From Mesostigma viride (taxonomy: Eukaryota > Streptophyta > Mesostigmatophyceae > Mesostigmatales > Mesostigmataceae), in the NCBI GenBank assembly GCA_009746045.1, contig RPFO01000744.1, positions 803,635 through 867,634 on the forward strand: a DNA stretch of 64,000 bases, in the 5' to 3' direction. The notes beneath the pieces were generated by a model. It was not told the DNA's origin and did not search any database. It saw nothing but the letters and a program-made list of their open reading frames with translations. Both the position numbers and the translations under genes were made by a program. This document shows, in pieces, positions 32,057 to 64,000 of the stretch; position 1 is the first letter of the stretch, and each line of letters starts with the position of its first letter.

Positions 32057-33830
32057 ATAAAGTAAATTAGAGGCAAGGAATCAGCTTAAAAAAAAGTCGA
32101 GAAATGTAGCGCTTGGCAAGGGAAACAATAGCAAGAGAATAATAGTAGCACTAACAGACCCTATAGAAGGCCGCCTTCCTCTTACTGCACTAGCGAGCAA
32201 TACAAGCTACATAAAAGCTCGGTCTTTAGCATGTCTATCAGCCTGCAGGTGAGGGTGCGGACACTTACTCTGTCAGGAACAAAAAAAATATTGCCCGCAA
32301 CTTTCCCGCAGTAATGGCAACAAAGACAGTAATGGCAGCAAAGAAAACAGAGGAAGTGAAGGGCAGGCCGCAGGCATCAGAACAGGTAGCTAGGCCGAGC
32401 CAGCATGCCCCGGTGGCTGGCATCAAGTCCCAGCATCCAAGTACTGCCAGCCACATACATCAAGGATCATCCCATGGCCTGCAAACCCGTGTGTGTGCGT
32501 GCGTGCGTGCTTGCTTGTGTGTTTATTTCTTCTTCCAGTGCATAACTGCCGAACCACAGGCAGCACTCTTCACCCATTATCATTGGAGGCCACATCGTAC
32601 CATCTGGTTGTGGAATTCTCTGGAGGCGCAGCTACCCCTTTGCAGCTCTGCGTGCATGCCTCCGCCTGTGGGACCCCCGTGTGCTCGATGCCCAGCCAGG
32701 CGTCCCACCTCCCTGCCCGCAGTGCCTGGCGTGACCAGCCACGCACAAAGCACGCGTCCGGCCCATTTGTGATGTCGATGGGAGCGAAAAGGGGAGGTCA
32801 ACACACTGGCTACCTGCAATTGCAAATGGGTGGCCCTACTCCATTTGCCACCATGGTCCAAGCCACCCTCCAGCCAAAACCCTGTTGCTGCAATTCTGCA
32901 AACTTCGCATAACACCTCACATGCTAATACGTAAAAGGCATCATCTTGCATCAAGTAAATGCTGTAACAGGTATACTCATGTCTATTCCCCAGGTAATGT
33001 TTTTAACAAGGTACTTCATGTTTCTAGGTAATGCTCTCAACAAGGTGTGTTATGTTTTTAGGTAACGTTTTAATTAAGGCACATTATGTTTTAGGTTACG
33101 TTATAAGGGTGTACAAAATTCAGTCGATGGAACCACCTGTCCTGTCAAGCAGAGTAGGCCGTCAAGACAGGTCCATTCTGACAGCATACTAGGCGTAAGC
33201 ACCTCATGGATGGTAGGGCCGACGGTCGGCAAGACAGGTCCATGATGACAGCATACAAGGCGTAAGCACCCCATGATGCATGGACTGGAGTGTGCTTGTT
33301 ACGGTGCCTTGCAAAGAAATGGATGAGAAATTACAGATCTGCCACTGGCATGCTAGCTCAGTCACAAATACACAAGAAGTGTGATGCCGATTGCTTGCAG
33401 TTGTTAGTTGCGTTGGTTGTTAGTTGCTAGCTTATGCTGGCGACCGGTTCACAGGGCGCTAGGTGTTGTTCCTATGTTGCGCGCCGTTCATGTCGCCGGT
33501 CTCATATCATGGCATACACACCCCTAACTTACTATCCTTGATGACTTCTATAATGCTGTACTTCCACACTATACTACTTTTATAATATAGAATACTTTAG
33601 TACTATATTACCGTACATACAGCGAACACGGCTCACGGACCCCCACTGATCCAAAGCTGGTAACGCCACCTTGACTACAAGCCCCCTAAGCTACATGGCA
33701 CCATATGCTCTAGCCCTCCAACAGCTTTACACGACCATCAAGCGGCACCTGGTAACAGGACGAGACCACATCATCCTATACATCATTATGCAACCATCCA
33801 GGGTCACCCTACCTGGTACATAGCGGGGGA
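32057..33830. other. between the USP7 gene end and the kinase-HECT gene
   Basis: No supported exon. It should carry the kinase gene promoter and the 3' end of the USP7 locus. Two 66-bp copies of GACAGGTCCATNNTGACAGCATAC...GGCGTAAGCACC lie at about 33165-33280, and degenerate copies of TTTAGGTAACGTT/AACAAGG at 32990-33100. Confidence 0.5.
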
Positions 33831-33841
33831 CCCTACCCTAC

Positions 33842-34030
33842 CTGGTAGCGTGGGACCACCTCGTCGTTGTCATCGAGGGGCGCCGCCGTGTCCACCACCA
33901 TGATGGCAAACTTCCACGTGGCAAACTCCTCGTCCGGCACGCTCAGCTTGGCCTGCACACGCTGCTTGACGGACGCCAGCTTCTCGTGCTCGCCGATCGC
34001 CAGCATAAAGGGGTGGCCGAACGCGGTCAC
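33842..34030 (-). CDS. USP7 cassette 2, second part of exon o'
   Basis: It reads VTAFGHPFMLAIGEHEKLAS then VKQRVQAKLSVPDEEFATWK and DDNDEVVPRYQ, very close to exon o. Acceptor ATGCAG. It ends at a donor-like CAG|GTAGGG; if unspliced it stops two codons later. A 30-bp echo of this junction lies at about 33812. Confidence 0.75.
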
Positions 34031-37000
34031 CTGCATGGTGAGTAATCCGTGCAGAAAATGTGATGCAAACAGAACAGGCAATCCAGGCAGAAAATGTGCG
34101 CGAAAGACTTCAGGGGCGGGTCAGATAGGGAAAGCGAGGAGGACTGTAAGCTTTACAGTTCGTGAGAAGAGGGCTGCCAGGTGGTCATCGCCGTCACTTG
34201 CATGCGTTCCCTCCGAGTACTTCGTATCGCTGGCTGATTCAAATAATTCCTGGCTGACAAACGTAACAGGAAGCGGATCCCGTGATGCTAACTCTTTCGT
34301 AACCTATATGCCCAGTACAACATTTACCCAATGTATACCACCTACTACTATGAAAGCATAGCAGTATACCTCTACTACTAGCAGTGTGCCTCAAGCCAAG
34401 CGCTCTTGCCTCTCTTATCATCTCCTTGCGAGGCAATGGACCTCAACACGGCGGGCAAGGGTGCCAGGTGGCACCCCTTCTAAGTTCAATGCACGTCACC
34501 CCAATAGTCAACAATCATAGTAGTACCACTATATGTTACACGATATCTGTTTGTCCTTGGCGGTTATGCTCTCACGCCTATTGACCAGATTGGAACATTC
34601 GAGGGCTGTCTCACAAACACATACATAATATCGTACATCTTGGTGTACCTAATGGGCTTACAAGGGCTGCTCCTATCTGCGGTGAGCACCAGACAAGAAC
34701 ACGGACACCCGCACACCCCCATCAAGCACTGAAACATGGATGCATACGCACCAGGTCGTTGCTGTCACCTGCCTCATCCCTCCTCACGTGGCTGACAGGG
34801 AGAAGCGCACACCCTGGGCCCTCGCACCTTCCCTTTCCCGTGACCTGCACGCAACAATACAAGAATGTAGTGACCAGCAATAATAAAAGAATGTAGTGAC
34901 CAGCGATGCATGGCTGGCATCGCATCCGTGCGAAGCGACACCCAAAGTCCTCGTGACCACATGGAACAAGAGAGAGTAAGGTGAGTGAAGCAATATAATA
35001 TCATACCACCCAGTATGATAGTAGTACATAACTTTATATCGTACCACCCAGTATGATAGTAGTACATATCTTTATAGAACAAGAAAGTAAGCCATGGAAC
35101 AAGAGAGAGTAGGGCCAATGGTGGAGACATGGGGAAGAGAAAAGGTTGGTAAAAAGCCACAAACCCTTCAACGCTGCTGCAGGATAACTGTCCACCCAGC
35201 TGGTTACAAACGCGAGATTCCCTCCTGTCAACAGCTGTTCAGGAAAGCCTTGGACGGGGCCCACTTACTGCCAGGTGCCTCCAGAACGCCGACATACTTC
35301 TCTGCGAAATTCTAGAGCTGAAATTGAACCCCGCTGAGCTCAGCCATGGGCTATAATATCATGCTAAACTGTGTGGCATCAATCAAGCTCATATTTGTCC
35401 ACTTTAACTTTGGCTCATATTTGTGGCATGGCAAGCCAACCGGCGCGAGATGGCTATCTAGGTGTTGACAGTGAAACCAATTGACAGTGCAACTGATAGA
35501 CCAACTGATAGATCATCCTGCACCATGGGACCAGATAGTTTCTTTGCACATCACGGCCCCTCACATCCATTCGCGGGTTCCAGTACGTGCCATCGGCGTG
35601 GGCGATGCTTTCAAAGTGGTCACTATCCACTTAGCTCCTCCACACGCAGTATATGTGTCGATGTTTCCAATGCGCTCAAAGCGGTCACTATCACTGGCTT
35701 AATGGTCACTTTAGCCACTAACGCCTCACCTCCTCCAGACGCAGGTTCCAGTGGTGGTCGTCGATGCCGTCGAGGGCCTCCGCCGGAGGCATCACGTGGT
35801 AGATGCGGCCCTCGTGTGTTTTGAGCAACCGCAGCTCACCCATGGCCGTGCACTCGGGCTCCGCCCTCACCAGCTTGAGAAGCTCGGCCACGGTGCTCCC
35901 AAGGGGCAGCTGGACGCGAAAGTTTGCGACCTGGGGCCGTTCCATTGGACGGCAAGACATTATCATACTTGGAAACACTTGCTGATTGGTGAGGGAGCGG
36001 TGGGCGTGTGTCTTGGAAATGCCATCAATGCCCAAAGGTAGTGAGAGCGCATTTTTCTCAGGGACCTAAGTAGATACCCAAGGGTAGAGTGGTGGTGGCA
36101 GAAATGCCAAATCATGCGAAACAATGCGAAACAATGCGAAACCATCCAAAACAATGCCAAACAATGCCAAACAATGCCAGATATTTCTAAGATAATTCCA
36201 GATAGCTGCCTGATACTGCGAAATACTTGAGAACCGACTGTGGGAGTGCAACCCACTTTGGCCCCGAGCTCGCAGGCTCACCTCCTTCTAGACAATGCCA
36301 CATAATGCCCGACAGTACCAAACAAATATATGCCAAACCAGTGCTCGCAGGCTCACCTCCTGCTAAACAATGCCACATAATGCCCGACAGTACCAAACAA
36401 ATATATGCCAACCAGTGCTCGCAGGCTCACCTCCTGCTAAACAATGCCACATAATGCCCGACAGTACCAAACAAATATATGCCAACCAGTGCCCGCAGGC
36501 TCACCTCCTTCTAAACAATGCCAAATAATGCCCGACAGTACCAAACATATATATGCCAACCAGTGCTCCCAGGCTCACCTCCTTCACCCCCTGGTCCTGC
36601 ACAGCGACGTCGATGGCCCTGGGGAACCGCTCCCGCTCGGGCCGCATCGGGTCCACCACCTCATAGTAGAGAATGGCCTCCTTGCGCCCATAAAGGTTAA
36701 ATCTATGATCCTCAGCCTGGTCCTTCAACGCATCATCAGCGCCATTCTCCGACGCATCATCCACGCCAATCTCCAACAAATCATCCCCGTCTGCCAACAT
36801 GGCCTTCAAGATGGCCACACCCCGCTGGATGGGCTGCGATCTAGGGCGATTGGCGCGGACATCGTGCGCCGTCAGCCAAATATTGGACGGCTCCGCTGGC
36901 CTGCAGCACAGTATGTCCAAGGCTGCTTTGTCCATGCGGCCTTCTGCCACCATCTGCTGCAGCTCACAGAGCACCCTGTATGCCACCTGGTCGTAGGTGT

Positions 37001-39625
37001 CCGTCTTGGACCTGCGTGCGGGGTCATGGGGTCACGTGCCAGTGGAGCACGGCACATCCAAGAAGGGATATAAAAGAGATTAAAAAAGGGATGAAAAAGG
37101 GATAGAAAAGAGATAGAAAAGAGATAGAAAAGAGATATAAAGGGATATAAAAGAGATATAAAAGGGATAGAAAAGAGTTTTTGAGCTATCTGCTCATTTT
37201 ATAGTTATGTTGCGGCGGGCTCAAGGGGGGCCGATCTGCTGCCTGTAGCGTAGCTCTACCGCACGTCACCTACACCATGTGAGGTGCTTGTGGTACATAG
37301 GACTAGAGAGAAGGGGATCGGCGTTGCGCCGGTACTAGTGCCTACTGGAAACCGTGCCCGCCCCTGATTGAGGGAGGCGCGGCGCCTTGAGACATGTGCT
37401 TTGTTTTTCATTTTCACACCATACTTAGAGTGGTGTGGTGAACGTAGGGATGCCTTTTTGCAGCTCGCAACTTTCCAATGTGAGGAAAGGTGGGCTGGCC
37501 GCTAGGGGGGCCGCTTTGCGGCCACTATGGCTGTAACGCCCAATGTAAGTCGACGTTGCCAGCCTCCCCGTGTTGCGGAGAGGTGACCCGCTGTTTTTCA
37601 AAATATTTGTGAACGCTTGTAGTGCTGGTCCTAGGGTGTTCTCCCATGGCGCTGGGGTGCGCCGGCCGGGCTCCAGTTGGAGTTGGGAGCCCGTAGTGAC
37701 TCAAATTTCAAAAGTCAAGGAAGAGGGAAGGCGGTTTTTAGAGAAGGTGGATTTTGGCGGAGAGCCCCGCGAAAGGACAGCGCGAGGTGACGATCCCTGA
37801 AGGAAGCGCTAGACTTGCCCTCGAGTAAAGTGTCCACCGTTTTTTTTTTTATCCCTGTAGCCGCGTGCACGAGGGAAGCAGGGCGTTTTTCAGACAGTGG
37901 GGTCAATAACAACCTAAAAAGAGGCAGAGCAAGGGGTGCACCAATGGCAGCGGCTGCCGTGGGTCGGGGGTGTCCTGTCGGCATGGGGAGGGCGGCAGGC
38001 GTCCTGTACCCTCTCGGCGCTCCGGCGAGCAGGCCCCTTCTGCCCTTGGCGATAAGGGAGAGGTGGGAAGCTGCGGTAAACCGTGGGAATTCATGCGCAC
38101 TTAAAAACTGTTTGAAAAATGCTACAGGGCCTGGCAAGCCTGGAAAAAAAAATTCCCCTCGAGGGGGGCGCTGGAAAACGGCAGTGAGCTCGGGGGTTGT
38201 TTTAAGAAAATGCATTATATAGTAGTATCATAATAAAGCTCGACTCGGCTGCGGCTGCGTCAAGGCTCGTGACACCATGGCGATGGTCAGCCTTGGCGCT
38301 AGGAGGTCCGCAGCCATCATTATCATCAGGATGGGGGGGATCTAGAGCCGGTGGCAGTGGCTCTACCTTCGGGAAATCCCAGCGGCTTTGCCGGTGGGCT
38401 GGTGCTGGTCGTTGGGTGAGCTGTAGACGTTCCCAGGTAGCATAAGTCCTAATGTGGCAGCACTGGGATGCGCCCCTCTAATAAAGGAGAACGCATGTGG
38501 CTCCGCCCTGCGTCCGCCGGGAAACCGTAGCAGCCACACGGGGGCGGGAGGGGGGGCATCATCATGCCAACAAGAGCCCAGCTTTCCAAGTGGTTGCGTT
38601 CCTACCACCAGGGCTGGAAACGGCCTGGGTGGCCAGAGATGGAGATGTGGGACAAGATTGGACCAAGGGGGCATGTGCTGGGCCCCAGCATGGTGAACTA
38701 GCCTAACTTGACCATGACTTGTACAATGATTTTGAGGGTGTGGCTAAGGCTCAACTGTTAAAGCCTGCACACACTTATTGTAATAAACTTGTTTCTCTGG
38801 TAGGAAGGCACTCCAATGGACCTTAGCTTCAGTACCTATATAGAAAAGGGAAAGAAAAGAGATAGAAACGGGATAGAAACAGGATATAAAGGGATATGAA
38901 AGGGATATGAAAGGGATATTAAAGGGATATAAGAGATAGAAAAGGGATTTAAAAGGGATATACAAGAAACATCATTTCGATAACAGCCTGTATTAGTTAA
39001 CAAAAAAATGGCCTTGGATCTGTGGGAGGCCATGCATGCCATGGACCGCACAGCAAGTCAAAAACAAAGGCGTGAGCGAGGTTGCTGGCAGCTACGGTTT
39101 GCCATGTTGGCGTTCGATGACCCTAATTGCACTCGACGATCCTATGCAGAGCGGCCTTCCCTGTAACTGTATGAGCGGAGCAACATTAGGTCCCAACCTC
39201 CCATTCCAAGGTGGGGAGGCAGGGCTGCTTGAGAAACTGTATAAAAGTATGCTGCTATTTTTATAATCCATAGGTAGTATTTTCCTACTATAATTACTTA
39301 GTGCTTCATGCACCATGCATGTAAAGGGCTGTTTTGTTGGATCAAGAGTGGCTTCATTTGCAGACTCAAAAGACTGCGTTGTTTATTTATTTATCAAACT
39401 GCGTTGCTTATTTCTCAAAGAGCTGCTTCGAGCAATGTCTCCCAGCCAACACACTTACAGCGTCAGCACAAAGCCTTCCTCGGTGGGGACTCCCAGCCGG
39501 CAGAAGCGCACGCGCTGCTGACTGAGCGCGTGGCCCAGGAAGGCAGGGCCATCGGGGAAGCGACACGTGGCGGCCACGTCGGGCGAGAGTGCTTTCTGGA
39601 CGAACAGGGCGTCACCCATCCTCAG
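33842..39625 (-). CDS. second, divergent USP7 C-terminal cassette (exons l', m', n', o')
   Basis: Downstream of exon p the exons l, m, n and o occur again in the same order and strand, with the same phases and nearly the same lengths. There is no second catalytic domain between 40 and 42 kb, so this is not an independent USP7 gene. The frames are open and the splice sites sound although only about half the residues match (32 of 67 in exon n', hand count). This suggests selection. It may be an alternative C-terminus, joined from exon k (phase 0) to l' (phase 0), or an extension. An LGLEH exon was not found for it. Confidence 0.7.
34769..34844 (-). CDS. USP7 cassette 2, first part of exon o' (tentative)
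   Basis: After acceptor GTGCAG the frame VTGKGRCEGPGCALLPVSHV then RRDEAG resembles VGPRDKVISVCHFQRDALNS of exon o. Two donors are possible: CAC|GTGAGG (34788, phase 0, fits the next exon) and CAG|GTGACA (34769, phase 1, does not). In exon o this part is not separated by an intron, so an intron was gained here or this is decayed. Confidence 0.45.
35730..35930 (-). CDS. USP7 cassette 2, exon n'
   Basis: 201 nt, the same as exon n: VANFRVQLPLGSTVAELLKL, then PECTAMGELRLLKTHEGRI and GIDDHHWNLRLEE. Acceptor CCCCAG, donor GAG|GTGAGG, phase 0. I count 32 of 67 residues identical to exon n. Confidence 0.8.
36270..36570 (-). repeat. 75-bp tandem repeat carrying copies of the exon m' donor
   Basis: About four units, each with CTCACCTCCT (minus strand AGGAGGTGAGCCTG) at about 36275, 36350, 36425 and 36500, repeat the exon m' edge and donor at 36579 together with the adjoining intron (CAAACAAATATATGCCAACC). 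Confidence 0.85.
36579..37011 (-). CDS. USP7 cassette 2, exon m'
   Basis: 433 nt, which is exon m plus 96 nt (32 codons). SKTDTYDQVAYRVLCELQQM, EPSNIWLTAHDVRANRPRS and ILYYEVVDPMRPERERFP align with exon m. The insert is acidic (IGVDDASENGADDALKDQAE). Acceptor CACGCAG, donor GAG|GTGAGC. The donor junction is echoed four more times in the intron. Confidence 0.8.
37065..37172. repeat. (GGGATATAAAAG)n-type minisatellite, first array
   Basis: Units of 10-12 bp, GAGATAGAAAA and GGGATATAAAA, about nine copies. A related array is at 38840-38965. Confidence 0.85.
37178..38836. other. GC-rich block inside an intron, unassigned
   Basis: 1.66 kb bracketed by two related minisatellite arrays. It contains open frames on both strands but no motif I recognise, a T10 run at 37840 and an A9 run at about 38143. 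It may be an inserted element of unknown type. Confidence 0.4.
38840..38965. repeat. (GGGATATAAAAG)n-type minisatellite, second array
   Basis: About ten units GGGATAGAAAC, GGGATATGAAA and GGGATATTAAA, similar to 37065-37172. Confidence 0.85.
39459..39625 (-). CDS. USP7 cassette 2, exon l'
   Basis: Exactly 167 nt, like exon l: LRMGDALFVQKALSPDVAAT then CRFPDGPAFLGHALSQQRVR and EEGFVLTL, ending CT|GTAAGT in the same phase. Acceptor CCACAG. Confidence 0.8.
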
Positions 39626-39629
39626 CTGT

Positions 39630-41045
39630 GGTCAAGGAAGATTCAATTGAGCAAGGAATCCGCCAAACAGAAAGGTCTGCAACTCAGCATATCCATACAT
39701 GCCCCCTAGCTCCAGCTGCTACGGCTTCGCCAGGCAACCCAGGCACGGACACGGGCAAGCTCAAACCTGCATGCGTCGGGGGTAATGGGATGGGCAAGTT
39801 GTGGCAAGCGATGTGCTGTGGGGAAAACAGGGTCTTTATTCCCCAGAGCCAAGCAGACATGCCAAGTCATGACGGCCATGGTACGCCGACCAATCAGAAT
39901 CAGACACTGAGGGGGCCACTATGTGCAACGCCTTCCGGTCTCGGCCAGTTCACCCAGTTAAAACGTCTGCATCCAAACGTGCAGGATGTTGCTCCCACTT
40001 CTTTTCTCATTCTCCCCCCCCACACCCCTTAGAAGTTCAAAGATAAGGTGATTTAGCAAGGGTTTCCTGAACACAGGGGATGACTAGGCTACCTGAACGC
40101 AGGGGATGACTTGTCTCCCTCCCCGACCGAACCACTTCCATATTCGAACACCATAGTACACTTATCCATGTTGTTCTAGTCCATCTCTGGCCCTCGGGTT
40201 CGCTTTGCACGCACCACCACAAAAGCTGAAGTTTATAACCATACGTGCGGTAGCTCTGCACAGGGGAATAACACGGACATGTCTAGCAGACGACCACACG
40301 GCCGTCCGTATGCTAGGGTGAGCAAACTATGTGAATTTACAGGGTCATCCCACAGCAGCTGTGCCCCAGCTCTACCCCGGTTTGCCAGGGCGGAAAGGTG
40401 GGGGGTAAACTAACTGCTTCCCTAGAACGGAAGCACAACTCTTATGACCACCTCCGGTCCAAGTCAGCCCCTACCTGGGTTGGCTAGGGTACGTGTGCCA
40501 GAATACAATATTGTGCATACAAACTTAACTATTTTTGCCATACGACATTGCATTCTCAGCTCAGCAGGTCAGTCATAGATAAAATGAGCATAGCTCACCA
40601 AATCCCGTAGTACTAGTCTATGTCACCACATAATGAGTGTACTTAACCCTGCTGCTACATGGTTGGGGCATGACGCAGGCGCTATTTGTAACTTTCGTGT
40701 AATTATTTTTCTAATGAGATTAGCGTAGCACTCCATGCCGTGCTCATGCGCATGACACGCAAGTACTTAATACTTAACCCTGCTGCATCCGTGGCTATGG
40801 TCTGCAAGGAAAATACTTGAAGTACACACTCCTGCAGTGTTCCGCGACAATATTCCATGCGTGCTCCTGCCTTGTCGTCATCATGGTGTATACCGCCAGC
40901 AAACAGCCATCAAAATCATGCCTGTAGGCGCCAACAGACGCCTTTTTCAATCATGAATGAACATGACCAAATGACTTTGCCTGTAGGCACCAACAGACAA
41001 TGGCGCACACGGGAATGCCTGCTGGCGCACGTCCAGGGCTCCCGT
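39630..41045. other. between the two USP7 cassettes, no gene recognised
   Basis: No supported exon. A repeated GCCTGTAGGCNCCAACAGAC occurs at about 40920 and 40979. Confidence 0.5.
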
Positions 41046-41048
41046 GCC

Positions 41049-41080
41049 AGGGTTTAGGGTTTAGGGTTTAGGGTTTAGGG
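41049..41080 (+). repeat. interstitial telomere-like (TTTAGGG)n
   Basis: Four to five TTTAGGG units in a row. A second short run lies at 41403-41421. TTTAGGG is the plant/green-algal type telomere unit. Confidence 0.9.
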
Positions 41081-41101
41081 TCAAAACCAATCCTTCTGCA
41101 T

Positions 41102-41330
41102 TGTCAAGGTTCAGCTGTCGTAACCGGACAAATTACAAGGACTCCCACAGAGATAGGCCACGTCTCCCGACCCTTCTGTACTGTCAAGGTTCAGCTGTCG
41201 TAACCGGACAAATTACAAGGACTCCCACAGAGATAGGCCACGTCTCCCGACCCTTCTGTACTGTCAAGGTTCAGCTGTCGTAACCGGACAAATTACAAGG
41301 ATTCCCACAGAGATAGGCCACGTTTCCCGC
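41102..41330. repeat. 80-bp tandem repeat, three copies
   Basis: Units starting TGTCAAGGTTCAGCTGTCGT at 41102, 41182 and 41262, almost identical, between the two telomere-like runs. Confidence 0.9.
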
Positions 41331-41402
41331 TATCCAAAGCCAAGCTGATCTCGTATCCCCAAACAACTGTTATCCAGGGGCTGCCTCCTCTCCGCGGCGT
41401 TC

Positions 41403-41421
41403 TAGGGTTTAGGGTTTAGGG
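41403..41421 (+). repeat. second interstitial telomere-like run
   Basis: AGGGTTTAGGGTTTAGGG, about 2.5 units. Confidence 0.8.
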
Positions 41422-41587
41422 TATGCCCAGTAACGAGCCTCCTCTCTGTCACCTGTCACCAACCTGGTCGCCAGCATACATCCCAGGCAGCCTGGGAACA
41501 GGTGTCAAGGCATGCAACCACACGCAGGAGCACCCGCCGGCAGCGACAACAAGCTGAACGATCCTCGTCTGCTAGTGTGGCATGCCT

Positions 41588-41872
41588 TGATCAGTGGATC
41601 AGCCCATCAAACTGTCCTAGTCAGCGCGACTATATAGCTATACGTGCCAAACAGTGATGATCAGTGGATCAGCCCATCAAACTGTCCTAGTCAGCACGAC
41701 TAGATAGCTATACGTGCCAAACAGTGATGATCAGTGGATCAGCCCATCAAACTGTCCTAGTCAGCGCGACTATATAGCTATACGTGCCAAACAGTGATGA
41801 TCAGTGGATCAGCCCATCAAACTGTCCTAGTCAGCACGACTAGATAGCTATACGTGCCAAACCGTGATGTAC
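41588..41872. repeat. 70-bp tandem repeat, four copies
   Basis: Units starting TGATCAGTGGATCAGCCCAT at 41588, 41658, 41728 and 41798. Odd and even copies share variants (GCGCGACTATATAG against GCACGACTAGATAG), so the last step was duplication of a two-unit block. Confidence 0.9.
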
Positions 41873-41919
41873 TAGGCATCATGATCGGTTCGCTCCTCTC
41901 TCGATTCATCCAGGCAACC

Positions 41920-64000
<22,081 letters not shown>

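Follow-up and report, generated by a model that had tools for sequence, protein, structure and literature searches.

Duplications spanning exon-intron junctions are enriched at 5' splice sites in sampled genes of the streptophyte alga Mesostigma viride

Introduction

Tandem copies of exon-intron boundaries, including their splice signals, have been described as "mirages" in the Adh3, globin, TnC and PGBD5 genes of amphioxus (PMC3087553, PMC3902484). In the portions of these two reports considered here, regular splicing is reported to continue in the presence of such copies, and RT-PCR results suggest that splicing is undisturbed. The units are 10-160 bp long and their copy number varies between haplotypes; the cases concern few chordate genes, both intron ends are affected, and these portions contain no enrichment test.

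Several other processes produce sequence of a similar kind. Small tandem duplications form at staggered DNA breaks by fill-in through Pol alpha-primase/CST followed by end joining (PMC8355091). These are likewise short local duplications attributed to break repair, but the breaks were induced, the cells were of human and mouse origin, and the relevant portion of the report describes no preference for splice sites. Duplication of an AGGT motif (the Rogers model, in PMC3087553) and tandem genomic duplication (PMC4974935) have been put forward as routes of intron gain; splice-site sequence is copied there as well, whereas no new intron was seen in the case described below, in which the exons of two gene copies correspond one to one. 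The stwintrons of Lipomyces are proposed to begin with duplication of the donor element of an intron (PMC7138796, in the part considered). They share the donor duplication but are nested introns removed in two steps, while the copies described here are known from DNA alone. For Mesostigma viride, a mean intron length of 1142 bp has been reported, and the portion of the genome paper considered mentions repeats in introns and not junction duplications (PMC6947507). No report of mirage-type duplications in a plant or alga was found in the open-licence literature searched.

Intron lengthening is usually ascribed to transposons and neutral drift. Here we describe extra copies of exon edges, with their splice sites, in the introns of M. 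viride, which we refer to as echoes. Boundary duplications as such are known; what is new is their presence in a streptophyte alga, in many genes (19 of 33 sampled loci), with a sharp bias towards the 5' splice site, no acceptor excess and about neutral decay. One source of intron growth can in this way be traced from fresh array to faint trace, gene after gene, in a long-intron genome of the plant lineage. The preference for one end of the intron offers a test of whether splicing or transcription directs mutation, and the duplicated donors form a natural set for studying how the cell picks the correct donor.

Results and Discussion

A USP7-Type Gene and Its Copies

The right half of the window (the whole stretch of 64,000 nucleotides that was analyzed) contains, on the minus strand, a gene for a USP7/UBP12-type ubiquitin protease, referred to as copy A. 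Its model consists of 19 exons running from 71626 to 43533, the first four of which lie upstream of the window (locus L009). The joined frame comprises 1077 codons and no stop codon, all 18 introns are of the GT-AG type, and the PFAM domains MATH, UCH, USP7_ICP0_bdg and USP7_C2 are recognized. The exons of the gene model within the window, all on the minus strand, are a (model exon 5; 63861-64000, continuing to 64058 outside the window), b (62460-62684), c (62003-62101), d (60530-60639), e (59727-59880), f (54026-54157), g (51995-52075), h (51211-51336), i (50526-50639), j (49674-49769), k (48617-48892), l (47936-48102), m (46874-47210), n (44984-45184) and o (43533-43805). Downstream of the 19 modelled exons lie one more exon, p, and a second, diverged set, l' to o', none of which is part of the model.

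The best protein match of copy A is the M. viride gene model P0001, with 73% identity. Compared with copy C (C2133), P0001 shows 86-100% identity in 12 of the 13 main exon matches and 71% in the remaining one. USP7 is present, as a whole gene or in part, at at least four dispersed loci in the genome, designated A, B, C and D (locus labels L062, L009-L014 and L046-L047). Copy B (C1912, 6.06-6.09 Mb) is 92.9% identical to copy A across 21.3 kb of aligned columns, and of copy D (C1912, 5.80 Mb) 540 bp of sequence was examined. Each of the 19 exons of copy A has a counterpart in copy B, where GT is present at 19 of 19 donors and AG at 17 of 18 internal acceptors. The remaining acceptor is that of exon a, near which copy B has a 21-bp difference. 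No new intron position, as expected for intron gain by tandem duplication, was found between A and B; copy C was mapped for 12 exons.

The segment shared by A and B corresponds to about the gene alone (41910 to about 72292 in window coordinates). The exons l', m', n' and o' (33841-39627) lie downstream of the gene, beyond this collinear segment, and form a diverged second C-terminal set, 32-71% identical to P0001 at the protein level. A 4.3-kb insertion (55377-59670), absent from copy B, sits in the intron that separates exons e and f. This is a fold-back element with two arms of 769 nt, 100% complementary and separated by 95 nt, plus a pair of 134 nt that is 99% complementary. Very long microsatellites were also observed in USP7 introns, both within the window (45699-46715, 48291-48511 and 52202-53231; ACT, GCT, CTCC, GAGT and GCGAGG types) and upstream of it (L009, 5460-7090; AACCC and GGCAT types), and several differ in length between A and B.

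Echoes of Exon Edges in USP7

Exon edges were searched for with a 60-nt query (40 exonic and 20 intronic nucleotides) in the adjoining intron, over a length of up to 1.5 kb. The threshold was a score of at least 15; when edges were compared with introns of other genes (5500 comparisons), 0.65% reached it. In copy A this threshold was reached at 11 of the 19 donors and 6 of the 18 acceptors. A wider query identified echoes at 12 donors and 6 acceptors, 9 and 5 of which, respectively, have at least six aligned bases on each side of the junction. Counted by exon, 14 of 19 have at least one echo with the wider query and 11 of 19 under the strict junction-spanning rule (at least six bases on both sides), so that the original statement that nearly every exon carries one was worded somewhat strongly. 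Echoes are also present at exons 2, 3 and 4, upstream of the window. Copy B has echoes at 12 of 19 donors and 6 of 17 acceptors, copy C at 8 of 10 donors and 2 of 8 acceptors.

Ten of the 14 exon edges listed in the original prediction were found in copy A with edge queries as stated or nearly so. The clearest are arrays, all on the minus strand like the gene itself. The donor array of exon a (63672-63895) has a 92-bp unit and two extra copies, with 35 exonic bases per copy. Exon d is flanked on both sides, by an acceptor array (60623-61207; 94-bp unit, six extra copies, the outermost partial) and a donor array (60215-60570; 104-bp unit, three extra copies) for which copy B shows the single-copy state. 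The donor array of exon h (51148-51224) has a 34-bp unit that includes only 4-9 exonic bases, with nine matches in copy B, and the four copies in the donor array of exon m' (36263-36585; 74-bp unit) share only 5-7 exonic bases with the true edge. Edge queries also recovered the acceptor echoes of exon h (51414-51445) and exon l (48161-48214) and all three decayed acceptor echoes of exon o (nearest, 43906-43934; middle, 44019-44061; outermost, 44499-44527), whereas the donor echoes of exon i (50376-50405) and exon p (41923-41965) are weak, with a score of 16 each. For three further donors, each predicted to have two extra copies, the outcome was partial. Exon f has one full echo (53897-53955, 127 bp away, 57 exonic bases, 82-83% identical), the second being a 22-nt fragment; for exon o a copy at 42932 (42902-42944, 601 bp away) was found, the one predicted at 42694 stayed below threshold and another was seen at 43420; and for exon n' one of the two was recovered (35621-35649, score 17). 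Short copies at the 3' edge of exon o' are visible by eye. A decayed acceptor echo of exon b (62920-62968, score 19) and a donor echo of exon m (46776-46813, edge query) were detected as well, again on the minus strand.

Within USP7 itself, donors hardly stand out from the deep intron in the query test, if at all: the frequencies at donors and in deep-intron sequence are 58% vs. 19-43% in copy A and 53% vs. 36-57% in copy B.

Echoes in Other Genes

Genes outside USP7 were surveyed with profiles for CCT chaperonins, kinesins and other ubiquitin hydrolases. Of the 219 matches, 100 were used, with microsatellites masked and exon edges predicted from the ends of the profile matches and splice-site scores. 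The sample, covering 39 loci of three protein families, yielded 98 exons with 85 donors and 92 acceptors, of which 81 and 86 had enough flanking sequence. Thirty-five of the 81 donors had an echo, compared with 14 of the 86 acceptors (Fisher p = 1.6e-4), a contrast that was drawn post hoc, with both ends always scored alike. Deep-intron segments, 150-500 bp into the intron, had an echo in 45 of 367 cases on the donor side and 50 of 398 on the acceptor side, a background of about 12-13% derived from several, and hence not independent, segments per intron. The acceptors are at this level, and the enrichment expected there from the original prediction was not found. In exon-interior segments, 40-100 bases from the edge, the frequency was 0-5%.

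The donor-acceptor difference was also seen with exon-only queries (offset -20; 20/82 donors, 6/89 acceptors) and at a stricter score of at least 24 (14/81 donors and 4/86 acceptors, with 27/367 and 19/398 in the deep intron). Broken down by family, echoes were present at 14 of 30 donors and 4 of 31 acceptors in CCT genes, 20 of 47 and 10 of 48 in kinesins, and 1 of 4 and 0 of 7 in UCH genes. Among the 33 loci at which a donor was tested, 19 have one or more donor echoes. A first, smaller run had given 28 of 59 donors and 9 of 61 acceptors.

Donor-Spanning Duplications Compared With Random Placement

In an event-based test, all local repeat pairs 30-260 bp apart were collected and randomly re-placed in the same introns, junction overlap being allowed. 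In the 39 non-USP7 loci, 20 events span a donor against 3.3 expected, a number reached in none of 400 permutations, and 5 span an acceptor against 3.8 expected, which is no excess. Among pairs at least 93% identical in these loci, the counts are 6 vs. 1.1 expected for donors and 1 vs. 1.2 for acceptors. The test was applied to USP7 copies A and C, giving 6 vs. 1.3 at donors and 2 vs. 1.3 at acceptors for copy A, and 4 vs. 0.4 and 2 vs. 0.3 for copy C with events of all ages. Young events in copy C showed no donor excess (none of the six events at >=93% identity; 1 vs. 0.2 at >=90%). In the genes sampled, donor-spanning duplications are about five times more frequent than chance and acceptor-spanning ones occur at chance level. 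The original claim of tandem duplication across splice junctions in many genes is borne out in that such duplications recur, with enrichment at the donors of the 39 non-USP7 loci, and fails for the acceptors. Lack of enrichment over repeats elsewhere in introns, the outcome that would have counted against the claim, did not occur for donors in this sample. The basis examined for the genome-wide mode of intron growth that had been suggested comprises 39 loci. When A and B are compared directly, 16 differences lie outside microsatellites. About 4 of them touch a junction, where an informal estimate puts the expectation at roughly 2.7, which is no clear excess.

The excess is concentrated at the splice site itself. 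Per donor, there are 0.235 duplications in the 40-bp bin that contains the site, 0.071 in the adjacent bin and 0.00-0.06 further in, so that the peak is narrow and located at the 5' splice site. Within introns, donor-like motifs show no attraction for duplications (5.1%, with 4.7% expected), which means that sequence alone does not explain the peak, and a search for an effect of G-rich motifs inside introns gave a negative result.

The alternative that survives best, although we consider it improbable, is that local duplication is uniform and purifying selection does the rest, copies within exons being purged and junction echoes staying recognizable longer through their conserved exonic half. 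Local duplications are indeed common throughout introns, the deep introns of USP7 copies A and B are nearly as repeat-rich as their donors, and the acceptor counts given above are accounted for. Junction and intron events are also alike in anatomy. Among young events, with all three USP7 copies included, plain tandem repeats or arrays make up 9 of 15 at donors and 50 of 82 elsewhere; in the remainder, the two copies are separated by unrelated sequence. Such a process, however, predicts equal numbers at donors and acceptors, where 20 and 5 were observed. Because the exonic half of a junction echo is conserved and recognizable for longer, identity was also scored on the intronic half alone. The donor excess remained: at >=90% identity, 8 events were found vs. 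1.67 expected with USP7 A and C included (P = 0.001) and 5 vs. 1.02 without USP7 (P = 0.002), and at >=80%, 9 vs. 2.57 with USP7 and 5 vs. 1.52 without (P = 0.019), the P values being approximate since permuted events, like the several deep-intron segments per intron, are treated as independent. Acceptor events on the intronic half stayed near expectation (at >=90%, 2 vs. 1.80 with USP7 A and C and 1 vs. 1.02 without; at >=80%, 3 vs. 2.61).

A somewhat less probable alternative places the origin of the asymmetry at the acceptor. Past the branch point, splicing tends to choose the first AG that is suitable. If both intron ends were hit, the upstream acceptor copy would be used first, the mRNA would be disrupted and the echo would be selected away. 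In line with this, acceptor counts are only at expectation although the conserved exonic half should raise them. What loss of acceptor echoes would produce, however, is a deficit at acceptors and not an excess of donors above the intronic baseline.

We therefore regard it as probable that the echoes are mirage-type local duplications, likely products of error-prone break repair, which span junctions and lie on 5' splice sites about five times as often as random placement predicts in the genes sampled. The copied stretches are mostly 20-80 bp long, with the copy some 30-200 bp away, and the arrays would subsequently expand and contract, probably through slippage or unequal exchange between copies. 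A copy at the donor would likely be tolerated because the exon-proximal donor stays in use; the one observation supporting this is that the annotated protein P0001 continues across the exon-d junction of copy C and does not include the echo. The echo would afterwards drift neutrally. The bias would then reflect a mutational rather than a selective hot spot; selective loss of acceptor copies may add to the asymmetry, but it cannot lift donors above the intronic baseline. More tentatively, the working 5' splice site itself could be a hot spot of DNA duplication in this lineage, with transcription or early splicing exposing the DNA to breakage and repair, and with introns lengthening from the donor end and shedding decaying copies of the splice site. 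If this holds, splicing sets where introns grow.

Fate of the Copied Splice Sites

The GT is kept in 36 of 49 echo donors, where about 39 are expected from the identity of the exonic part (copy B left out), and in 20 of 30 older ones, where 21.1 are expected; earlier counts of 18/25 and 19/29 showed no excess either. This loss at an about neutral rate gives no indication of a role in splicing, and the echoes appear, from their sequences, to behave like unused, drifting copies. Competition between the sites of an array, as originally proposed, is not supported by it. The distances between echo and edge are not biased towards multiples of three (20 of 65).

The neutral decay also bears on the rather unlikely explanation that selection keeps donor duplications, as extra U1-binding sites that secure splicing or shield long introns from premature polyadenylation. 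It would account for a bias specific to the 5' splice site, but it does not fit the rate at which GT is lost, and echo-bearing donors are no weaker, by PWM score, than the remaining ones (10.85 vs. 10.51, p = 0.17).

Across the 56 called introns, 60 kb in total, 18% of the sequence lies in local duplications and a further 5% in microsatellites. The presence of a donor echo was not accompanied by significantly greater intron length (909 bp with an echo, n = 15; 769 bp without, n = 41; p = 0.22). The original description of the introns as built from echoes was in this respect too strong.

Reach of the Copies and Turnover Between Gene Copies

The spacings of donor echoes range from 34 to 205 bp. 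In many single-echo events the similarity stops 0-16 bases past the splice site, with 17-67 exonic bases repeated, which first suggested a site-specific insertion at the splice site. Such a pattern would be left by an insertion directed to 5' splice sites, introner-like or RNA-mediated, that brings a copy of the exon tail along. In the youngest pairs, however, the intronic reach is spread out and not concentrated at the site, and the short reach of the older ones is mostly put down to faster decay of the intronic half. The 60-bp filler of the exon-d array, the one filler searched for in the genome, gave four matches, all in USP7 copies, and we consider an insertion of this kind very unlikely. 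That the exon-d filler is mobile was likewise rejected, its sole match outside the window's own array being in the fourth USP7 copy.

The copies span exonic and intronic sequence across the boundary, as mirages do, and their number differs between gene copies here as it does between haplotypes in amphioxus. The donor array of exon a has two extra copies in A and eight in B; that of exon d has three extra copies in A, none in B, one in D and a differently spaced one in C. Turnover thus appears to continue, as originally suggested. Tandem arrays are error-prone in assemblies, but an assembly artefact is hardly credible because many echoes, in many loci, are 10-30% diverged and several are common to separate USP7 copies.

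In copy B, exon d directly adjoins the sequence that in copy A follows the outermost echo. A reading in which A and C gained their exon-d donor echoes independently, with B as the empty state, was withdrawn: A and D share the filler, C may share the end of it (by eye), and the state of B is possibly a secondary contraction. A minor observation concerns exon f and its echo (region 53894-54115). Judged by eye, the echo encodes DV, as P0001 does, where exon f of copy A itself encodes SL; the echo may therefore have retained an older state of the exon.
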